The notes below the pieces were generated by a model that worked only from the letters and a program-made list of their open reading frames with translations, made no database searches and was not told the DNA's origin. This document shows, in pieces, positions 16,471-29,382 of a stretch of 64,000 nucleotides of DNA. A program made the translations under genes and the position numbers. Origin of the DNA: Tilletia caries (Eukaryota > Basidiomycota > Exobasidiomycetes > Tilletiales > Tilletiaceae); the NCBI GenBank assembly GCA_032718865.1, contig JALUTQ010000045.1, positions 62,001 to 126,000 of the forward strand, written 5' to 3'. Within the stretch, counting starts at the first letter, position 1. Every line of letters starts with the position of its first letter.

Positions 16471-19400
16471 ATGCCTGCGTACCGCAAAACAGCAGGGGCG
16501 ATTCAGGCGCAGCTTGGTCCGGGTGAGTGGCTCTGCTCTTCACCTCATACTTGTCCGCTGTCTGTCAGTGTCACTGATCCCCTCTTCTCTTGACAGAGTT
16601 CCGTCTCTTGGACGGCACCCCGTCGCGGATCGTGTGTTTGGCCTGCGATGAAGATGGAAGACGACCTTTCGTGCCAAAGCACCTCGGTCAGCACGCGTCG
16701 AGTAGCCGTCATCAACGTAACAAGTCAACATGGGTAAGTCTCTCGCGCGTGTAGACTGTGTGTGCGTGGATCGTTCTGTGCTCATTCACGGTACCTTCTG
16801 CAGCAACATGATCAGGAGTTGGAGCAGGACAGGAGTGCGACGCCAGTGACCGATCCCTTCTTCGAGTCGGGAGAGGATCACCTGCTGATTGATAATCCAA
16901 ACGACCATGCAAAGGAGGACTTCTTTCGTCGCATGGACCTTGACGACGACATGGCGTCTTTGGTGGAGGAGGGACTGGCCATGCAGGAGGAAGATGAAGC
17001 GTTCACGCAGGAGATAAGCAAGGACAACGATCATCGGAGGCACAACGGAGGCAGCGACGATGCATTCCCCTTTCAGTCAAAGGAGGTGAGTCTCTGATGA
17101 TCAGCAGAGTCCAGATACTTGCTTTGCTAATCGATACAACTATACTGTCAGATTTTTCCTTGCCCTTTCCCTGAAGAACTCGCCTCAACACGTCCTGTCC
17201 GAGGCGTCGCTGGGCTTCGCCCTCGACTTTGCCAACGCGTTGGATGCGCGCGGAACTCCGTCTGCGTACGCCTGCTCTCAAGCCATGAAGCTCATCAGAT
17301 CGGACGTGTCCCCTCCCCTTTATCGTCACACAACTTCGGACAATAAGATCTTCTTCTCAAGCAGCGTGGAGGATAAGATCCGTAACGTGAGTTGTTGAAG
17401 TCTATTATATTCAGGCTCCACCCTTTGGCTCTCGCTGATCATTTCTAAACCTCAACGCTGTATTTTTCTCTGTGACTGTTGTGTCTGGCGATCTGGCCAC
17501 CTGCATTCTGCAGGACTTTGCCAATCCCATTACGCGCACGAAGATGATACTGCTGCCTGTTCGGGATCAATCAATGAGGGAGGTGTTTCACGGGAACGAG
17601 ATGGCGCATCAGACGGATACGCGCAAGACACCGCCCTGCTTTCGCCTCAGCAACGGTGAGACTGTCTTTACCGATGAGGTTGTACAGGTCACTGGTGGCC
17701 AGCTTCTGCGGCCTTATACATTCTTCATCAATGAAGAGGGCGACCCGAGATGTGAGGCATGGCAAGTGATTCGGCGCGGCGATCACTTTGAGGCATATAT
17801 TCAAGGCGTGTCTCCCGTCGAGTTCGATCCCGAGACGATCGAGACCTGGGAACGCTCAGTACTTCACGAAGTTGATGTCTGTGAGTCCTCCACTCCTTCA
17901 ATATCCCGAACACGTCACGATGCTTCTCTCTGATCACCATCCAGTCCTCTCCAGTTGATCAGCACGGGACAAATTTGCCTCGAATCAATCACCTCCGCCT
18001 GAAGGCCGGCAATCGCCTTGTCTATCAGGTTCCTGTTATCCTGTTCGAAGATGAGACGTCTGGTTCGACAACAAAGCGTTGGAATGAACACATCGGAATC
18101 TACATGTCCAACGCAGCATTACCCAGAGCCGAGATGGACAAGCGCATCAACGTCAAGCTGTTGTCCGTCAGCACCAAGGTCAGCGGACACGACCTGATGA
18201 GTGCTGCGGTTGACGAGTTGATGTGAGTTCCGTCGGAGCATGGGCCTTTCAACTCTCGAGTATGTTCACGTATCACTGACACGCTTGATATATACTCAAT
18301 GGCTCAACGCTCTCAGTGCACTACACAACGATCCCTTCCCGGTCCATGATTGTTTCTTAAACGAAGAAGCACTCGTCAGACCGATTTTGATCTTTTGCGT
18401 GGCCGACAACCCGATGGCGGCTATGCTTTCAGCATCCATCGGGATGTCCGGTCTTCATGCGTGCCGATGCTGTCGAGCGGGAGGGACGAGGAGACAGATG
18501 AAAGAGGTGCTAGGGTTTGCCAACTTCTTAAAGGTGAGCTCTATCGTCAGGAGCATCGGCTATGGCATGGGAGACGGTGACGGACACTTTGACTGTCAAC
18601 CTGAGCGTGACCAGATATTGATTGATCTACTTCCATGTATGCATTTCAGCTCGGAACGAAGAAGAACAGCGTCGATGTCATCAAGGAGAATCGTAAACAA
18701 ATCAACTTGGCTGCCAAAGGCGTGGCATCGACGCTGTCCAATCGACAACGCGATACTGGAATCAAGGACGGGGTGACTGCTGTGCTGTGTGATGAATTGC
18801 TTGCACTATCCAAATCGAAACCAGACCGACACCATGACGAAGCTGTGAAGGCACGACGAAAGGAGATGCTTGAGGGAAAATGGCACTCTCCGCTGTTGCG
18901 GCTGTACGGTACGTATCTTACGGGTCTCATGTGTCTTTCCTTGAGTTCACCTCTCCGATTTCTGAATCTCGCTAACGTCAATCTCTGCTCTCTATAAAGA
19001 CGAGACGGGATTCGACGTCTGTGCCGCTACGCCAGTGGACCTGCTCCACACCTTTCTGCTCGGCGTCGCAAAGTACTTGTGGATTCACACAGTATCGAGC
19101 ATCGGTGGGACAAAGTTTAGCTCCACCCAGCGAGACGCTGTTGCCCGGCTTCAGGCTGTGTCTCTCTCGGGTGTGGTCAATGCAAAGTGCCTACCGGGAA
19201 AATGGCTGATTGACAATGCAGGCGGTCTCATCGGCAAGGACCTCAAGAAGATCGTACAAGTTGCGGCAGTTGCATTCTACCCGTTGATGAAAGCGGAGAC
19301 AATGTCCCTGGAACTGTGGATGGCATGGAGTGCTCTGGGTGTTTTTGGGACGTCTTCTCTTTGTTGAAGAGATTTCATGGGAAGAGATGGGTCAATACAA

Positions 19401-20576: not shown

Positions 20577-21085
20577 ATCTGAATCTCCTTTAATGAAATT
20601 GTGCGCAGCTGTTTGGATGCTGGAAGATTCATGCGTGTGACCGTGTGTATCATAAGTGGAACTGGAAGTGATCATCGCTGGGTCTCGTGGGAGTCAGGAG
20701 ATCGTAGGAGGTAGTGTGAGGGTCTCCTCGGAGCTCGCAGACTATGAGAGCATGGGTGAGGCCCGACGATGATCCTCAGCAGTCCTCGGCGGTGGCGTAG
20801 GATATCGCCACCACGATAGTCCAACGACATACATGAACCTCTAGCAGTGTAGGCTCCATTGAATGACACCAGGAAGAGCCTAACAAGGCAAACACTGCAA
20901 GCCACACCGTGTCGCGAGATTTCAGAAGCCACCGCGCTGCCGCGACACCACGTGGCTTCACTCAACTCCCAGCCAGCTGAAATCGCCATATCCAGCTCCT
21001 CGCCCTCCGCCAGAATGCTTGCGGCTAGATCAAACATCAGATCGCTTTGGAAGAGAAAGAGCTGTGATGAAAGAGATTGTGCTGA
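20577..21085. other. Spacer between the transposase-like gene and the LTR element
   Basis: No gene is supported. The LTR retrotransposon begins at 21086; the five bases before it are GCTGA. A target duplication cannot be tested because the far LTR is truncated. Confidence 0.5.
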
Positions 21086-21379
21086 TGTAATAGCAGTTGC
21101 TATTAGGCAAGTGAAAGCGAGTTGAATAATGGGAGAAGCTATCTACAAGAGAGTGGCGAGCAGGAAGATGATGAGGACAAGAGAGGGAAAGCACTCGGCC
21201 GAGAGAGGAAAGGCGAGAAGAAGAAAGGGAAAGGAGATAAGAGAGAGAAACGGAGATAAGATAGTAAAGCCACATGGTTTGCCACGTGGATTTACTATCT
21301 ATGGAAGCGAGCAGCATTGAGAGAAGAGAAATGAGAGAGGAGAAAAGAGAGCGAGAGAGGATGAGACCACCGTCTATCA
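21086..21379 (-). repeat. 3' LTR, complete (294 bp)
   Basis: On the minus strand it runs TGATAGACGG...TGCTATTACA, i.e. TG..CA ends. Its terminal 20 bases contain an 8-bp inverted repeat (TAATAGCA/TGCTATTA) around two bases. The first three bases of the LTR (TGA) serve as the pol stop codon. The plus-strand portion 21086-21230 is identical to 27583-27727. Confidence 0.9.
21259..21300. repeat. Imperfect hairpin in LTR U3 with a CACGTG core
   Basis: Two 19-bp arms (21259-21277 and 21282-21300) separated by four bases match at 17 of 19 positions. The right arm contains CCACGTGG, the palindromic E-box bound by bHLH factors. It lies in the U3 half that is absent from the 5' LTR. Confidence 0.75.
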
Positions 21380-24300
21380 CATCCCCCCTTCAAGCAGCTC
21401 GTCCGTCTCGGGACGAACTACCAGCCGTGACAGCGCATCAGCGTTGGTGTGCGAGCTTCCCGGCCGGTGTACAAACCGAAGATGGGCAAGATGCGGCATC
21501 AGAAGAGCGCGGCACCTCGAGATGACCGGCCCGTACTTTGCCCCGGCCGTGCTCGTCAACATAGCGCCTAGGGGCGCGTGATCCGTGACGACGGTCACAT
21601 CGGCACCCTCAAGAAGATGAAGGAAGCGGCCGAACGCCCAGGCCAAACAGCAAAGCTCGAGTTCGGCGGCCACCAGCTTTCGCTCCGCTGGCGCCGTCAA
21701 CCTCGAGAGAAACGCAACCGGTTTCTCCACCAGTACGACCTCGCGCCCATCCTCCAAGCTCAGACGACGAGGGCGTCGATACGGCCCCCGCAAGTCCTCA
21801 ACCGGAACGATCGACATCGAGAAGGTGCCCGGACCTGTCTCGTACTCCCGCATCGCGCGCGGAGCATGCCGTTCACGAGGAGGCAGCGAGGGCGAGACCT
21901 CAGGAGGAGAACCAGGGGAAGCCGGGACAGGAGACGATGAAGTGGCAGGAGGCGATCCAGCACGGTGAGTCTCGAAAGGATCTGGCACCGCCGGTGTAAC
22001 GTCCAGCTGGCTGACATCGAACTCATTACCAATCCCAATTCCCGCAGGAAGAGCAAGGCGGACCCGATGTGGAGACAGCACCTCCAACACCTCGTACGGG
22101 CCCTGCTTCCGCGGCGCCAGCTTGTCGTGCAAGGCACCAGGCATCGGTCGATCGTCCAAACGGACGTACACGCGCGCCCCGGGCTCTAGAAAGGGAAGAG
22201 CCGCTCGCGAGCGATCGTAGTTGCGCTTCTGGGCCGCACGCGCCACCGATACCGCCTCCCTCGCCTCCGACAAACGAGCATCGGCGGCGGCCAGGCGCTC
22301 CGCGAAACTCCCGACACCAGAGTGCTCCTCGGAGTCGAACACCGCGTGCACCAGGTCGGGGTGGGCCACGAACACCAAATCAAACGGGCGCTCGCCGGTG
22401 GTCACGGACGGAGTCGAGTTGATGGCGAGCTCGGCTGCCGGAACGGCACGGCGGTCCCAATGCGCTCTGGACGTGACGCAGAGGGATTGCAGAACAAACT
22501 TGGCGGTTTGAATAGTGCGTTCGACGGGGTTAGCCTGGTGATGGTGAGGAAGGGAGGGTCGGAGCTCGGCCTGCAGAGAGGCAGCCAACCGACGCATCAC
22601 ATCACCGGTCAAACGCGCCTCCGAGTCTGGAACCAGGCGTCGTGGGCGCCAACCCATCCGCAGAACACGATCGCTCAAGATGGCCGCGATGTCCTCCGAC
22701 GTCACCGACGAAGAACATGGCTCCATCAAGACCATGCGCGAGAACAGGTCAAGAACGACCAGCACCGCGTCGTGGCCCGCCCTGGAACGGGGAAAACCCA
22801 ACAACAGATCGATGGAAATTGCCTCGAAGGGCAGAGCAGCATCCTTCCCAATCTCCAACTCTCCCGTTCTGCGCATCACCTTTGTGGAGATGCACGCAGC
22901 GCAGTGCCGCACCCACGCCCGGACGGCGACGGACAGGCTGGGGCGCCAGAAGTGGCGGCGAACGCGCAAGAAGGTCTTCGAGAACCCGAAGTGCCCAGCA
23001 GAGTCGTGGGCGGCGCGAAGGATAAACGGCACGCCAGCATCAGGCAAGGCCAGCACTCCATCGACTCGATGAACGAGAACGCCGTCCTCCACGAGCCACT
23101 CATCGGTGGCCCCCTCGCCGGCCTCCAACGACCGCACGATCGGCCCGAAAATGCGATCATTCAGCAGCCAGGTGCGCCATCTCTCCTTCGACACCGTCGG
23201 CGGTAGCAAACGCGCGTCAAGAGGGAACATCTCGGCGGCGCCTGGTCCATCATCGCGTTCAAAGACCTGGTGCAGCACGGCACCGAACCCTTCTTTACTG
23301 GCGTCCACATACAGGAGGTATGGGCGAGTCGGATCGGGGTGTGCGAGGACGGGAGGAGTGGCGATGGCCGCCTTCAGCGTGTCAAACGCCAACTGCTGCG
23401 CATCACCCCACGAAATCTCGACGCGAGCAGCGGACGCAGCGACCCCGTCCGAACCTACCAACTGATAGCGCTCACCGACCTTCGCGTACCGCCAACCTTG
23501 TGTCAGCTGTGACAGAGGCGCCGCCACAGAGGCGAAGTTCGGCACAAAGGCCCGGTAGTATCCGAAGAGCCCGAGCGCGTGGTACAGGTCACGGAGGGTG
23601 CGCGGTCGAGGCAGATCCAACACGGCCTTCGCCCTATCGCCCCAGACGGCCACACCCGCAGCAGAAACCTTTCGCCCAAGAAGCACTAGCGACGACACCG
23701 CGAAGGTGCACTTCGCAGGGCTAAATCGGAGACCCGCCGAAGACACGCGCGCCAGCAAGGTGTCGAGCGCAACCACATGCTCCGTCATCGTGTGGGTCGC
23801 GACAACAACGTCGTCGATATACACAACGGCATCCTTCCAGCGAAGTTCCCCCAACAACGCGTCCATTAGGCGCTGGAACACGGCCGGGGCGTTGCGCAAC
23901 CCGAATGGCACCGTCTTATACTGGAAGAGGCCTCGGTGGCAGGTAAATGCCGTCTTCCACCGATCCTGCTCCCGGACACCCAACTGGTGGTACCCACGCA
24001 ACGCATCAAGCAAACTGAAGACGCGCTTTCCGGTGAGTGAGTTGAACACGGAGTCGGTCGTGGGCAGTGGGTAGGAGTCCGGGATGGTGTGCGCATTGAG
24101 CTGACGATAGTCCACGCAAAACCGCCATTTGTCATATTGGCGAACCATCAGAACGGGGAACGATACCGGACTCGTGCTGGGTTCGATCACGTCCCAGGAC
24201 AGCAGCTGGTCAATGGCCGAGTCCATGGCCCGACGCTTCTCAGGACTGGCCCGACGCGGAGCCTCAGGGTGTAAGGCAGCATCGTCACGCAGATCAATCG

Positions 24301-25978
24301 GCATCTCGTGTCCGATCACCCGACCAGGCCGCCCGTCCAGCGCAAACGCTCCGCGATGCCGACGGAGGACGTCGACGACCTCCGCATCCGGCTCACCACC
24401 GACCCCGACGCCCACCTTAAAGACGTCGTCCACCATCACCGTCGTCGGCTCGGGAGACGAAGGAGGGGGAGATGGAGCCGCGTCATCCGCGCTGATGTCG
24501 AGCGGGCTCACATCCACATCCGCGAGCGGCGCCAACGAGGCATCGGCGAGATGCACACCAGCCGCGGCAGGGGCGATGGGCAGGAGCTCAAAGGTGTGAG
24601 AGGTGTGAACTTGCGCGTCGCCGACGTGCGCAGCCAGGGCATCGGCAACAGGGGTGCGGCGCTCCACGACTGCGTCAGTGGTGCCGACGTTGGTAAGGAG
24701 GATGTGGGTCGCGGAGCGTCCAGTGATCGCAACCGGGCCGGCCAGCTGCACGGTCTCCGAGGCGTCGACCGTCAAACGGGGAAACACGGTGTAGTCCACC
24801 CCCGGCGCCAAACAAGCCACATTCACGGGTACCCAGGCGTGCGAGCGGGCCGACACCACCACGTCGCGCACCACGCACAATTCAGCAGCCGTGGTGTAAG
24901 GCGCAGGCATGTGCTCGCGCACAGAGAAGGTGAGCACCGCACCATCGTGAGCGACTGTCGCTGCGTCGTTGGCGGAGTCGATGACGACGCCGTGTGTACT
25001 GACAAAGTCTTGTCCGAGACACAGCCCCGGCGCAAACGCCTCCAGGACGTGGAAGTCCAAGGAGCATTCAACCGTCACCCGGGAGCCGGGCGCGCCCCGG
25101 GCATCAATGAAGAATGTGAGTGTGCACCAACCAAGGGACGACGCGGGACCCAGACCCTGAATCCGCATCGGCTGACCCTGCACCGTACCTCCCAACAACT
25201 CCAGCAGATTTCGATCGATGACAGACAAGGAGGCGCCCGTGTCCAAGAGCGAGGACAAAGGGGCGCCGTCGGTGTCATTGACACGGATCAGAGTTGTGAG
25301 TGGCACATGACGGCGATAAGCTAGGCCGGTCCCCACCTCCGGACCAGGCTGCAACACCACCGTCTGACCCCTACGTCTCGTCTTCTGACGCAGGGGCTTC
25401 GTATCTCGATCAACGGAAAACGTGCGGGCGGTAAACAGGTGGGAGCTGGGTACGATGGTAAGTACCTTCCCACCCGTCGGCGCCGGCTCCGTCTCAGTCA
25501 AACAATCTCTCATGTTCAGCAGGCTAGGTAGAGAATCTGTAAAAGGGAGAACGTGCTCATTAGGCCGTCCTATTTCTACAGGAGGGAGAGTCTGTACTCC
25601 CCTTGAAAAGGGTCCATGGGGTCTCAGGTCCGGGGGTGGTCCGGGTCCCCGGCCATCTCCGCACATGGCCTCCGCGTCGTCATGGTACGCCGTGGGGAGG
25701 TCCTGTCTTGAACCAGAGGAGGACGCAACCCTCTCCCCACGGCCCTTGAATCCACCATCAGCGAGATGGTGCGGGTTGCTGTGAGTCGCTTGTTGCACCG
25801 ACTCACCGAGACGATCGTACTGACCGTCTCTACTGCTTATCGGCAGTGGATGGGTGCCGTCATCCCTTCTCAACTCGGGCCCGGTCTGAACCCCGTCAGG
25901 CGTGACGCGGCAAACGCGATCGGGTGGCTCAGGCGGAACCGAGAGGAGGCATGGCCGATCAGGGACGGCCTCTAGTTT
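21377..25978 (-). CDS. Ty3/gypsy Pol polyprotein with split RNase H
   Basis: The frame is open from just after a TAA (25979-25981) to the stop at 21377. Residue numbers below count from 25873 (a TTG; there is no ATG before residue 70). Domains in order: aspartic protease (LLDTGAS, 209-215), reverse transcriptase (FCVDYRQLN about 585; catalytic YIDD 685-688), start of RNase H (YVDASKEGFGAVLHQ, Asp857), integrase zinc finger (His956, His961, Cys991, Cys994), integrase core (Asp1022, Asp1083, Glu1118), GPY/F module (1258-1260), a Pro/Ser-rich linker, then the rest of RNase H (Glu1404, Asp1431 in VTDHAPL, Asp1479 in NADALSRL). Standard order is PR-RT-RH-IN, so here the integrase sits inside RNase H. 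The frame is intact over about 1,500 codons. The last codons overlap the polypurine tract and the stop is supplied by the LTR. Confidence 0.95.
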   Translation of the reverse strand, partial: KLEAVPDRPCLLSVPPEPPDRVCRVTPDGVQTGPELRRDDGTHPLPISSRDGQYDRLGESVQQATHSNPHHLADGGFKGRGERVASSSGSRQDLPTAYHDDAEAMCGDGRGPGPPPDLRPHGPFSRGVQTLPPVEIGRPNEHVLPFTDSLPSLLNMRDCLTETEPAPTGGKVLTIVPSSHLFTARTFSVDRDTKPLRQKTRRRGQTVVLQPGPEVGTGLAYRRHVPLTTLIRVNDTDGAPLSSLLDTGASLSVIDRNLLELLGGTVQGQPMRIQGLGPASSLGWCTLTFFIDARGAPGSRVTVECSLDFHVLEAFAPGLCLGQDFVSTHGVVIDSANDAATVAHDGAVLTFSVREHMPAPYTTAAELCVVRDVVVSARSHAWVPVNVACLAPGVDYTVFPRLTVDASETVQLAGPVAITGRSATHILLTNVGTTDAVVERRTPVADALAAHVGDAQVHTSHTFELLPIAPAAAGVHLADASLAPLADVDVSPLDISADDAAPSPPPSSPEPTTVMVDDVFKVGVGVGGEPDAEVVDVLRRHRGAFALDGRPGRVIGHEMPIDLRDDAALHPEAPRRASPEKRRAMDSAIDQLLSWDVIEPSTSPVSFPVLMVRQYDKWRFCVDYRQLNAHTIPDSYPLPTTDSVFNSLTGKRVFSLLDALRGYHQLGVREQDRWKTAFTCHRGLFQYKTVPFGLRNAPAVFQRLMDALLGELRWKDAVVYIDDVVVATHTMTEHVVALDTLLARVSSAGLRFSPAKCTFAVSSLVLLGRKVSAAGVAVWGDRAKAVLDLPRPRTLRDLYHALGLFGYYRAFVPNFASVAAPLSQLTQGWRYAKVGERYQLVGSDGVAASAARVEISWGDAQQLAFDTLKAAIATPPVLAHPDPTRPYLLYVDASKEGFGAVLHQVFERDDGPGAAEMFPLDARLLPPTVSKERWRTWLLNDRIFGPIVRSLEAGEGATDEWLVEDGVLVHRVDGVLALPDAGVPFILRAAHDSAGHFGFSKTFLRVRRHFWRPSLSVAVRAWVRHCAACISTKVMRRTGELEIGKDAALPFEAISIDLLLGFPRSRAGHDAVLVVLDLFSRMVLMEPCSSSVTSEDIAAILSDRVLRMGWRPRRLVPDSEARLTGDVMRRLAASLQAELRPSLPHHHQANPVERTIQTAKFVLQSLCVTSRAHWDRRAVPAAELAINSTPSVTTGERPFDLVFVAHPDLVHAVFDSEEHSGVGSFAERLAAADARLSEAREAVSVARAAQKRNYDRSRAALPFLEPGARVYVRLDDRPMPGALHDKLAPRKQGPYEVLEVLSPHRVRLALPAGIGIGNEFDVSQLDVTPAVPDPFETHRAGSPPATSSSPVPASPGSPPEVSPSLPPRERHAPRAMREYETGPGTFSMSIVPVEDLRGPYRRPRRLSLEDGREVVLVEKPVAFLSRLTAPAERKLVAAELELCCLAWAFGRFLHLLEGADVTVVTDHAPLGAMLTSTAGAKYGPVISRCRALLMPHLAHLRFVHRPGSSHTNADALSRLVVRPETDELLEGGM
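21380..21390 (-). other. Polypurine tract
   Basis: On the minus strand AAGGGGGGATG immediately precedes the 3' LTR. This is the primer site for plus-strand DNA synthesis. It is also translated as the last codons of pol. Confidence 0.8.
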
Positions 25979-25993
25979 TTACGACGTCGCGGT

Positions 25994-27481
25994 CTAAGCA
26001 AAAGACTGCCCGTTGTCGATCTCGGGGAGTTCGACATCGTACTCGCCCACAGCGACCAGCGGGAAAGCGCGGGCGCCCTCCTTGAGCCAGACGTGCTCGA
26101 AGTCGAAGTGGGACTCGCCACACTGTCCGCAAGGCCGATTCAGGCGCATGATGGACCCGTTGTTGCGCCGGTACCCTCGCTTCTCGGTTGCGGTCGCCTC
26201 GATGACTCGAGAAGGGTCGAAGCGATTGTCACCCGACGACGACTGCGCAGCAGGACGAGTCGGAGCGGGGGGGTTTCGCAGATCGGAGCGAGGGGGGCGG
26301 ACGGGTGCCGGCGCGGTGAGTGACGGGGCGGAAGGAACAGATGTTCCGGATTGACCAGCCGACGATGGAATGATGAGAGGTGTGTTGCTGACCTCTCTCC
26401 ACGTCGGTTCCCAGTCGCTGAGGGCGTCCTGGACATCTTCGGGGGAAACACCATCTTGCGGCAGACGGAGCATCGCCCTCATCGACGCCGGGAGGCCGGC
26501 AATGACCTCCTGCGCGATGGCAGCCTCGGCGAAGAGATCTCCGAAGGCTTGACGATAGAGCTGGATCTTGTCGAAGTAGTAAGTCATGGCCCGCTCCGAA
26601 CGTGCATTCCAAACGCGGAGACGAGCCTGCTGACGCTGATCCGTCTTGTTGACGCGGAAGCGAAGACGCATGACGCGCACCCAGTCCGCGACAGTGCAGA
26701 GCTCGGCAGCGGCCGTGTTGGAAAGGCCGATGTGCCAAGTCTCGGCATCACCAGTGAGACACTGGGGGAGGGTGCATACGACGGCCGGCTCCCACAGCGG
26801 ATCGGGGTTTGAACGAGCGATGTCCCGCAGCTTGCTCAGGAAACGTTCGAGCTTGCTTGGGTCGCCGTCGAACTCGCCCAAGGAGTCCTTCTTGCAGGTG
26901 AGTGAGCGAGTGCCACCCACCGTCGCCACCGACCGGACTGACTGAATGCTGTCTCCGGCAGCCGAAAGCTTGGTAACCGACGAGTTATACTTGCCGAGGA
27001 GGGAGCGGAACTCGCTCTGGTCGGTCGGGCTCATCGAGGCGAGCAGGTCCTGCATCGTGACCGGGAGAGCGGGGCCGGAACGTGACGCCGAGGACGCGGA
27101 TTGGTCTGAGGACGGGTCCGAGCCCATAGAGGTCGACGTCGACGTTTCCTGGGCAGCCGACGTTGACGAGGGTGCCGGAGCGGCAGACACAGCTGCAGAA
27201 GAGGGCCTCGGCGTGGAGGACCGAGGGGACGCGACCTCGACGCGGTCGATACGCGTGGAGATCTCGTCGTGGGATTGCTGGAGAGACTCGACCCGGGCCA
27301 TCAAGGTTGTCTGGCCGTCGATGATCTCCCGGAGTTGCTGTCCGATGGTTTTCTCCACGACCGGGGCCTCGGACGGCGAGGCGACGGCAGCGGCAGGAAT
27401 GTCCGTCGGAGCGTCGGACTCAGCACCCTGCTGGCGCTGCTTTCCGCGGGTGAGGGCGGGCGTGGTCTCTTTGGGCGGCAT
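25994..27481 (-). CDS. Ty3/gypsy Gag
   Basis: A 495-residue Gag. A Ser/Ala-rich N-terminal third with a coiled-coil stretch (EKTIGQQLREIIDGQTTL) is followed by a capsid-like retrotransposon Gag domain (about residues 195-345; LGEFDGDPSKLERFLSKL, then ARLRVWNARSERAMTYYFDK and AIAQEVIAGLPASMR). Near the C-terminus is a short zinc-knuckle-like motif (CGQCGESHFDFEH), a CCHH variant rather than the usual CCHC. It ends at TAG; four codons later an in-frame TAA follows, after which pol continues in the same frame. Gag forms the particle in which reverse transcription occurs. Confidence 0.9.
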   Translation of the reverse strand: MPPKETTPALTRGKQRQQGAESDAPTDIPAAAVASPSEAPVVEKTIGQQLREIIDGQTTLMARVESLQQSHDEISTRIDRVEVASPRSSTPRPSSAAVSAAPAPSSTSAAQETSTSTSMGSDPSSDQSASSASRSGPALPVTMQDLLASMSPTDQSEFRSLLGKYNSSVTKLSAAGDSIQSVRSVATVGGTRSLTCKKDSLGEFDGDPSKLERFLSKLRDIARSNPDPLWEPAVVCTLPQCLTGDAETWHIGLSNTAAAELCTVADWVRVMRLRFRVNKTDQRQQARLRVWNARSERAMTYYFDKIQLYRQAFGDLFAEAAIAQEVIAGLPASMRAMLRLPQDGVSPEDVQDALSDWEPTWREVSNTPLIIPSSAGQSGTSVPSAPSLTAPAPVRPPRSDLRNPPAPTRPAAQSSSGDNRFDPSRVIEATATEKRGYRRNNGSIMRLNRPCGQCGESHFDFEHVWLKEGARAFPLVAVGEYDVELPEIDNGQSFA

Positions 27482-27564
27482 TGTTGAGGAAACAAGCGGG
27501 GGTTGGGAGAAGGCGGAGGGTCTTGGGGTGGGTGGCTGGCTTCTGTCTGTCAGTTAGCGAGCAG

Positions 27565-27582
27565 TATCCACTCTCATCACCA
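27565..27582 (-). other. Primer-binding site
   Basis: Directly after the 5' LTR end (..TTACA) the minus strand reads TGGTGATGAGAGTGG. TGG pairs with the CCA tail of a tRNA. I could not identify the tRNA by eye. Confidence 0.65.
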
Positions 27583-27727
27583 TGTAATAGCAGTTGCTAT
27601 TAGGCAAGTGAAAGCGAGTTGAATAATGGGAGAAGCTATCTACAAGAGAGTGGCGAGCAGGAAGATGATGAGGACAAGAGAGGGAAAGCACTCGGCCGAG
27701 AGAGGAAAGGCGAGAAGAAGAAAGGGA
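27583..27727 (-). repeat. 5' LTR remnant (145 bp, U3 missing)
   Basis: Identical to 21086-21230 over all 145 bp, then the similarity stops abruptly at 27728. The missing 149 bp correspond to the U3/promoter half, including the hairpin. Confidence 0.9.
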
Positions 27728-28616: not shown

Positions 28617-29382
28617 CTATTGGAGTATGGAACCCTGGGCGACTTGAGAGAGGAGAAGCACAATGGTGACGCCGAAGGTGGCCACCGACGACGGACACAT
28701 TGACCTCGGCGGGCTTGACGTTGGCAACCCGAAACGACGCAAAAGCCCGAGACCATGCGGATGGGCAAAGAAAAGTCCTTCGAGCCGCTCAACACCCGCA
28801 TTTACCGTAGCGGTCTTCGTGATGTGAGGCCATTCCTGTTCCTTGAGCCATTCCAGCAGGGCTTCGGCTGGGGCTCGTCCGTGCAGAACTTCGCGTCGAT
28901 GCCGCTGCAAAAGGTTGGAGATGTCCTTGCTGGTGACCACAAGCGGAATGGGACGTTGAACCAGCATGGAAACGATTCGGGAAGGTCGTGTTCCATGGCG
29001 AGCGAGTTCGATGATCTGATATTTTGTTGCGACATCGATGCGACGCTGGATGGCATGGGCCAAGGGACTGGTGGAAGCAATATGGTTGTGAGACGCGTTC
29101 GTTACCGCTGTAACCCATTTCCCCTCGTGATTGACCTTGAGACGAACACGAAACGGACATCCGGGTTTGGCACTGGACGTTTTGCGCTTTCGGGTCTGAT
29201 CAGTCAGATCATGGGAGTTCTTGTAGCCGCCCTGCTTGTGACAGCCCATGTAGAGATAAATGCCTTTGCTTGATGCGTACGTCGTCACTACATAGCCTTC
29301 CATCTGCGCCCAAGTCTGGAGGTAGGCCACCCCTTCTTGTTTTTGTGTCGAACGATTCGTCGTTGGGGGGCGGAAGCAGCAT
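28617..29382 (-). pseudogene. MULE transposase, N-terminal part, truncated and frameshifted
   Basis: Starting at an ATG at 29382 (MLLPPPNDESFDTK), the frame needs one base fewer at a CCCC run (29330-29333 on the plus strand) to continue into VAYLQTWAQMEGYVV. Then follows a FAR1/WRKY-GCM1-type zinc-binding DNA-binding region (YMGCHKQGG ... KPGCPFRVRLK ... SHNHIAS), the linker typical of MULE transposases, and GLFFAHPHGLGLLRRF, the segment just before the catalytic domain. The first catalytic Asp block expected next is missing. The frame ends at 28617. Confidence 0.8.

Follow-up and report, generated by a model that had tools for sequence, protein, structure and literature searches.

We analysed a 64,000-nucleotide (nt) stretch of Tilletia caries contig JALUTQ010000045.1 (hereafter the window) that carries, at 21085..27727 of the minus strand, a Ty3/gypsy-type long terminal repeat (LTR) retrotransposon with a split RNase H. 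The copy is whole apart from a shortened 5' LTR and comprises LTR pieces, gag and pol, all on the minus strand. Its pol open reading frame (ORF; 21377..25873) is unbroken, as the first-pass annotation had stated, and encodes 1498 amino acids (aa), terminating at a TGA stop inside the 3' LTR. The aspartic protease (residues 195-330; 24884..25291; DTG at 211-213; Asp_protease_2, E 1.8e-4) is followed by the reverse transcriptase (RT; residues 540-745; 23639..24256; YIDD at 685-688), which was recognized by Pfam (RVT_1, 581-733), by its conserved columns and by its best match among solved structures, Ty3 (7q5b_A, E 8.5e-78). Next comes the first half of RNase H, termed RHN (β1-β2; residues 836-875; 23249..23368), with Asp857 at 23303-23305. 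The integrase (residues 895-1310; 21944..23191) lies between the halves and consists of an H2C2 zinc-binding module (Integrase_H2C2, 951-998), a core with D1022, D1083 and E1118 (rve, 1018-1111, E 1.8e-4) and a GPY/SH3 module (SH3_Tf2-1, 1234-1290). After a variable Pro/Ser-rich linker (residues 1311-1371; 21761..21943), Pol ends with the second half of RNase H, termed RHC (residues 1372-1490; 21404..21760), which runs from β3 to the C-terminus behind a lineage-specific lead-in and carries Glu1404 (21662-21664), Asp1431 (21581-21583) and Asp1479 (21437-21439). The four acidic residues of an active RNase H (D-E-D-D) are thus all present, on either side of the integrase and at the positions first proposed. 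The protease, integrase-core and gag matches fall below the Pfam cut-offs; relatives nevertheless conserve the catalytically important protease and integrase residues.

Both pieces match complementary parts of a single RNase H. In Pfam, the best stretch for RT_RNaseH_2 was 822-872 (profile 1-51 of 100) and that for RT_RNaseH was 1383-1443 (profile 30-90 of 105). In sequence searches of solved structures, an RHN query (residues 792-898) matched Ty3 Gag-Pol at 857-914 (E 2.5e-4) and Ty3 RT-RNase H at 324-381 (E 6.6e-5), with murine leukaemia virus RT scoring slightly better, and RHC matched the same two Ty3 proteins at 916-1018 and 383-438. The two halves hence fall on adjacent ranges of the Ty3 Gag-Pol RNase H (857-914 and 916-1018). 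As the RHC matches were weak on their own (E 0.38 and 2), we built a contiguous-RNase H profile of 144 positions from 21 distinct RNases H of the T. caries genome and nine proteins. Window Pol matched this profile at positions 2-38 (27 bits) and 42-138 (58 bits), establishing that the suspected division of RNase H by the integrase is real. The same junction recurred across a set of 159 split-type proteins (window Pol and P0001-P0158): both pieces lay within score and position limits in 129, with the break near profile positions 38 and 41, RHN ending at 36-41 in 112 of the 129 and RHC starting at 32-42 (at 41 or 42 in 118). At least one piece fell below the limits in the other 30. Since the pieces meet at profile positions 36-42, the break corresponds to the β2-β3 turn.

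The lead-in before β3 (window 21728-21778, pol residues ~1366-1382) follows the pattern P..RP..v.iDG....l.ERPVAF and is conserved in most members of the split lineage, in the position taken by the short β2-β3 turn of a standard RNase H. The predicted model of RHC aligned to RNases H and RTs only from residues 55-58, approximately β3, onwards (43 of 50 rows among the matches listed). In a 959-residue model that includes RHN, the conserved β3 is predicted to lie in a long strand, whereas the same residues form a coil when RHC is modelled alone; with a low predicted template modelling score, this serves as a comparison of strands only.

These data bear on the idea that RHC is a complete second RNase H and RHN a decayed first one. 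Dual RNases H are described for retroviruses, Odin and plant Athila/Tat elements, and added RNases H for oomycete Chronos and Archon, in the passages available to us of PMC9040795 and PMC5348765; these share with the split lineage an unusual RNase H in a Ty3/gypsy-like Pol, and RHC is indeed RNase H-like, conserved and located beyond the integrase. Such elements, however, possess an extra domain, whereas here one domain occurs in two pieces. RHC starts inside the profile rather than at its beginning, Asp857 is conserved in RHN, and the modelled RHC alone would leave its β3 as coil. Our profile detected a contiguous RNase H in 0 of the 159 split-type proteins, while finding one in the more distant P0159, P0162 and P0165, and no near-complete RNase H was found elsewhere in the window element or in 20 split-type loci of the same genome. 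A complete second RNase H was rejected on these searches, and we regard the dual arrangement as extremely unlikely.

Copies, relatives and conservation

Candidate RNase H places numbered 315 in the T. caries genome, of which 150 were scored; about 69 of these (counted by eye) matched the C-terminal part of the profile only. Twenty loci were fetched from among the latter, with preference for long open frames, and all 20 showed the order RT-RHN-integrase-RHC. In contrast, among 30 control loci of this genome whose RNase H is contiguous, the integrase followed RNase H in 29; in the remaining one (L007), no integrase was found within the stretch examined. Searching the genome with RHC returned at least about 133 rows at 51-100% identity (by eye), some of them two parts of one broken copy. 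Below these, identity dropped to at most 38%, and the rows were contiguous RNases H that match from about 7-10 residues later in the query. In L019, which sits on a deep Tilletia branch, the RHC coding match stops at 1445 on the minus strand and resumes at 953, about 490 nt further on.

Homologues of window Pol numbered 180, and the 120 listed were all from Tilletia (indica, controversa, walkeri, laevis and caries). Among those listed, 106 had the full split order and none the standard one; the other 14 lacked a detected RHC (nine), RHN (three), RHN and the zinc domain (one) or the zinc domain (one). For some Tilletia homologues the annotated product is about 2000 aa long and may include gag. 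A search with L019 found 600 proteins, and the 120 listed contributed 25 new ones, 24 from Tilletia and one (P0125) from Jaminaea pallidilutea, which also has the split order. The P0125 gene model contains two successive pols, of which the first has the split order and the second breaks off after GPY; tandem or nested elements have here been annotated as a single gene. Searching in turn with P0125 yielded 41 proteins, including P0146 (Parajaminaea phylloscopi) and P0147-P0157, all 12 of which had the split order and, by similarity to P0125, a chromodomain-like stretch that follows GPY and precedes RHC. Pfam Chromo, applied to five non-Tilletia proteins, scored above its cut-off in P0152, just under it in P0149 and P0158, and gave no match in P0146 and P0157; it found no chromodomain in window Pol. 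P0158, from Melanopsichium pennsylvanicum, combines a chromodomain with a C-terminal RHC and has no RHN in its gene model. The split order was seen in 0 of 24 more distant proteins (P0159-P0182), in some of which a piece went undetected, and among 128 IMG/VR stretches that fit a pattern none encodes a relative. The true range may be wider, because the searches rest on shared words and listed at most 120 matches each.

Jaminaea and Tilletia belong to different orders of Exobasidiomycetes. The concern that this copy might be unique was thereby refuted, the arrangement being common to every fetched locus, to most listed homologues and to a second fungal order. The same holds for an assembly error, a nested insertion or a gene-model artefact: the double pol of P0125 shows that such errors happen, but the same break occurs in many contigs, five Tilletia species and two other genera. 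This number of independent loci already refutes the artefact, to which we attach a negligible probability.

The catalytic residues were assessed in 121 aligned rows, excluding gaps. D857 was present in 116/118, E1404 in 112/112, D1431 in 111/112 and D1479 in 107/109 rows, which compares with 114/114 for D687 of RT, 119/119, 116/118 and 118/120 for D1022, D1083 and E1118 of the integrase, and 88/89 for D211 of the protease. Among the 14 non-Tilletia proteins, D857 was found in 13/13 (one gap), E1404 and D1431 in 14/14 each and D1479 in 12/14; P0125 and P0153, which account for the two exceptions, drop out of the alignment close to that residue, as expected of a misread or damaged end. Column entropy was 1.02 in RHC and 1.06 in RHN, close to the integrase core (1.04), as opposed to 2.30 in the linker, and the linkers on both sides of the integrase are variable.

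Complementarily, selection was tested in eight copy pairs, of which only L018/L020 and L011/L022 had usable synonymous divergence (dS). In these, the ratio of nonsynonymous to synonymous divergence (dN/dS) was 0.00 and 0.02 for RHN and 0.05 and 0.02 for RHC, indicating that purifying selection acts on both halves. Pairs with high or saturated dS, the latter not counted as evidence, gave 0.07 (L013/L017) and 0.06 (L009/L023) for RHC, 0.19 (L015/L024) for RHN and no value for either half in L012/L021. L010/L016 was dropped, as L010 holds parts of two elements, and L025/L028 hardly differ in most domains (dN/dS 0.34 in RHC, 0.95 in the integrase core and 1.49 in RT).

The earlier suggestion that the enzyme might be defective has thus become unlikely. 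It would require standard-order elements or host RNase H to clear the RNA of hybrids in trans, and contiguous-RNase H elements are indeed plentiful in the same genome. Against it stand the near invariance of the four acids across genera, the purifying selection seen for RHN and RHC alike in the pairs with usable dS, the more than 100 genomic RHC matches and the copies with identical LTRs; we judge it quite improbable. A further alternative is that an intron spanning the integrase is removed in some transcripts to give a contiguous RT-RNase H. The RHN-RHC distance is divisible by three in all 20 of the copies assessed (21 less L026), an observation that an open frame explains equally well. Using simple patterns, we found no recurrent donor motif after RHN, with the recurrent GT lying upstream of the Asp857 codon, and a branch-point-like motif near RHC in only 4 of 20 copies. 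An intron joining the halves was rejected on these grounds, and splicing appears very improbable.

The split group is both old and recently mobile. An LTR pair was found in 14 of the 20 loci, 8 of these 14 with an exact 5-bp target duplication, and in six loci the LTRs (260-422 nt) are 100% identical and each pair is accompanied by an exact 5-bp duplication. The LTR pairs of L013 and L026 are also identical but short (147 and 103 nt), reaching the end of the stretch examined. For the window copy itself the case is weaker than first proposed: its LTR segments are identical as claimed, but the identity covers only the 146 nt of the 5' remnant (27582..27727, identical to 21085-21230) out of the full 297 nt of the 3' LTR (21085..21381; TGTGAT...TATTACA). 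Because the 5' LTR is shortened, this identity dates little, and recent mobility holds for the group more than for this copy. Its close relative L014, on another contig, is 99.3% identical over 6645 nt and retains two 297-nt LTRs (99.66% identical) with a 5-bp duplication; the window 3' LTR matches the L014 LTR at 98.99%.

Origin and comparison with known elements

In RT trees, all split rows fell on one side of a single branch, both in a smaller tree (18 of 33 rows; support 100/98) and in a larger one (40 of 76 rows; 100/98, and 100% of 200 bootstrap trees). The nearest group consists of four loci of the same genome with contiguous RNase H (L008, L029, L036 and L037) and P0162 from Tilletia indica (node 99/95), on a long stem (1.49); its members have a one-piece RNase H followed by the integrase. 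Because the split rows share one branch beside contiguous-RNase H elements, the simplest reading is that the contiguous order is ancestral and that the split has a single origin. This origin would predate either the divergence of the Tilletia and Microstromatales members or a transfer between them. As the other genera have a chromodomain-like stretch and the window element has none, the data suggest that the Tilletia members lost a chromodomain.

The element is Ty3/gypsy-derived, standing inside Ty3/gypsy by RT descent and outside it by domain order. It shares with that group its RT, LTRs, a primer-binding-site-like sequence and a polypurine tract, as well as the 5-bp target duplication seen across its lineage, but departs from the protease-RT-RNase H-integrase order with contiguous RNase H. 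Yeast Ty3 (Metaviridae; Gag-Pol 7q5b, RT-RNase H 4ol8) has homologous RT, RNase H and integrase, yet its contiguous RNase H lies between RT and integrase, whereas in the window element the integrase lies inside RNase H. Fungal chromoviruses carry a chromodomain on the integrase, at its C-terminus; window Pol lacks one, while its non-Tilletia relatives have a chromodomain-like stretch after GPY and then RHC. In Gmr1-type elements, as in Ty1/copia, the integrase precedes RT, which is the case neither in window Pol nor in the split loci. Two of the more distant proteins, P0165 and P0174 (one of them annotated in the oyster Saccostrea), are Ty3-like and read integrase, RT, RNase H, another rearranged order; RNase H is in one piece in P0165.

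Other domains are known to be lodged in RNase H-like folds, such as R3H in PARN and the insert of Hermes transposase, according to the portions of PMC3985635 available to us, which also describe insertions among the first three strands as relatively rare and helices between β2 and β3 as marking RNases H2 and H3. PARN and Hermes resemble the split Pol in having an insert, but they are not retroelement RNases H. A survey of 59 fungal genomes (PMC3248453, available in part) reports that RT and RNase H are transmitted together and mentions complex outlier elements; the split order is not among what this part describes. Searches of one open-access library showed no earlier description of the arrangement, which does not amount to proof that there is none. 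LTR retrotransposon classes are customarily recognized by their Pol domain order, and RNase H is viewed as a single module that goes with RT and cannot be divided; the lineage departs from both, with the catalytic acids of one RNase H on either side of an integrase of about 500 residues throughout. Annotation that relies on domain order or on whole-domain RNase H profiles may misread such elements as truncated.

Probable assembly of a composite enzyme

Together, these findings very probably reflect a Ty3/gypsy-derived lineage of one-time origin in which the integrase entered the β2-β3 turn and RNase H works as one composite enzyme. According to this reading, β1-β2 with the first catalytic Asp would remain on RT, the Pol C-terminus would supply Glu-Asp-Asp along with the other strands and helices, and the integrase (in relatives, with the chromodomain-like stretch) would hang as an insert on two flexible linkers. 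The halves would come together in a single Pol chain ahead of any cleavage by the protease, and the assembled domain would cut RNA in RNA/DNA hybrids. Folding from two chain segments, one of the mechanisms proposed at the outset, is supported by domain order, conservation and, in part, the model comparison, though not proven. Fold searches with the 959-residue model were dominated by hits to integrase and RT and gave no clear indication for RNase H, and mutual information between RHN and RHC (128 of 159 rows, effective number 44) was uninformative, the top pairs piling up on columns 874-875 beside gaps.

Alternatively, the enzyme could be rebuilt after proteolysis, with a cut between RHN and integrase, perhaps also between integrase and RHC, and RHC, free or on the integrase, redocking onto RT-RHN. 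The element has a protease domain, both linkers are variable, and the lead-in that precedes the start of contiguous-RNase H matches is conserved across the lineage; a single chain, in turn, is the simpler way of keeping the halves together. We give this route somewhat less than even weight. It is a variant of the composite enzyme rather than a departure from it, so that the confidence placed in the two overlaps.

A more tentative extension, which we consider rather doubtful, is that RNase H acts as a coupling device: the protease would cut between RHN and integrase and spare the integrase-RHC junction, so that RHC travels on the integrase. If so, the RNase H site would be complete only while RT and integrase bind each other, tying RNA removal, polymerization and integration to one complex, and an integrase core of RNase H fold would be nested in sequence inside another enzyme of that fold. 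The lineage provides a natural experiment on the processing of RT, RNase H and integrase and on what keeps them together, as well as a natural RNase H split site, used by evolution.

Remaining features of the locus

The gag ORF (25994..27481) encodes 495 aa with a weak Retrotrans_gag match (E 0.0062, under the cut-off). It shares one frame with pol, from which TAG and TAA separate it (25979-25996). Directly after the 5' LTR lies TGGTGATGAGAG (27570..27581), named primer-binding-site-like from its position only; the same motif, TGGTGATGAGAG, also follows the LTR in L009, L012 and L018. The polypurine tract AAGGGGGGA (21382..21390), read directly from the sequence, adjoins the 3' LTR. The element is flanked on one side by a tnp2-like transposase piece on the plus strand (18240-18773; E 2.4e-5, under the cut-off) and on the other by a piece of a FAR1 DNA-binding domain on the minus strand (28620-29330; E 6.3e-7).

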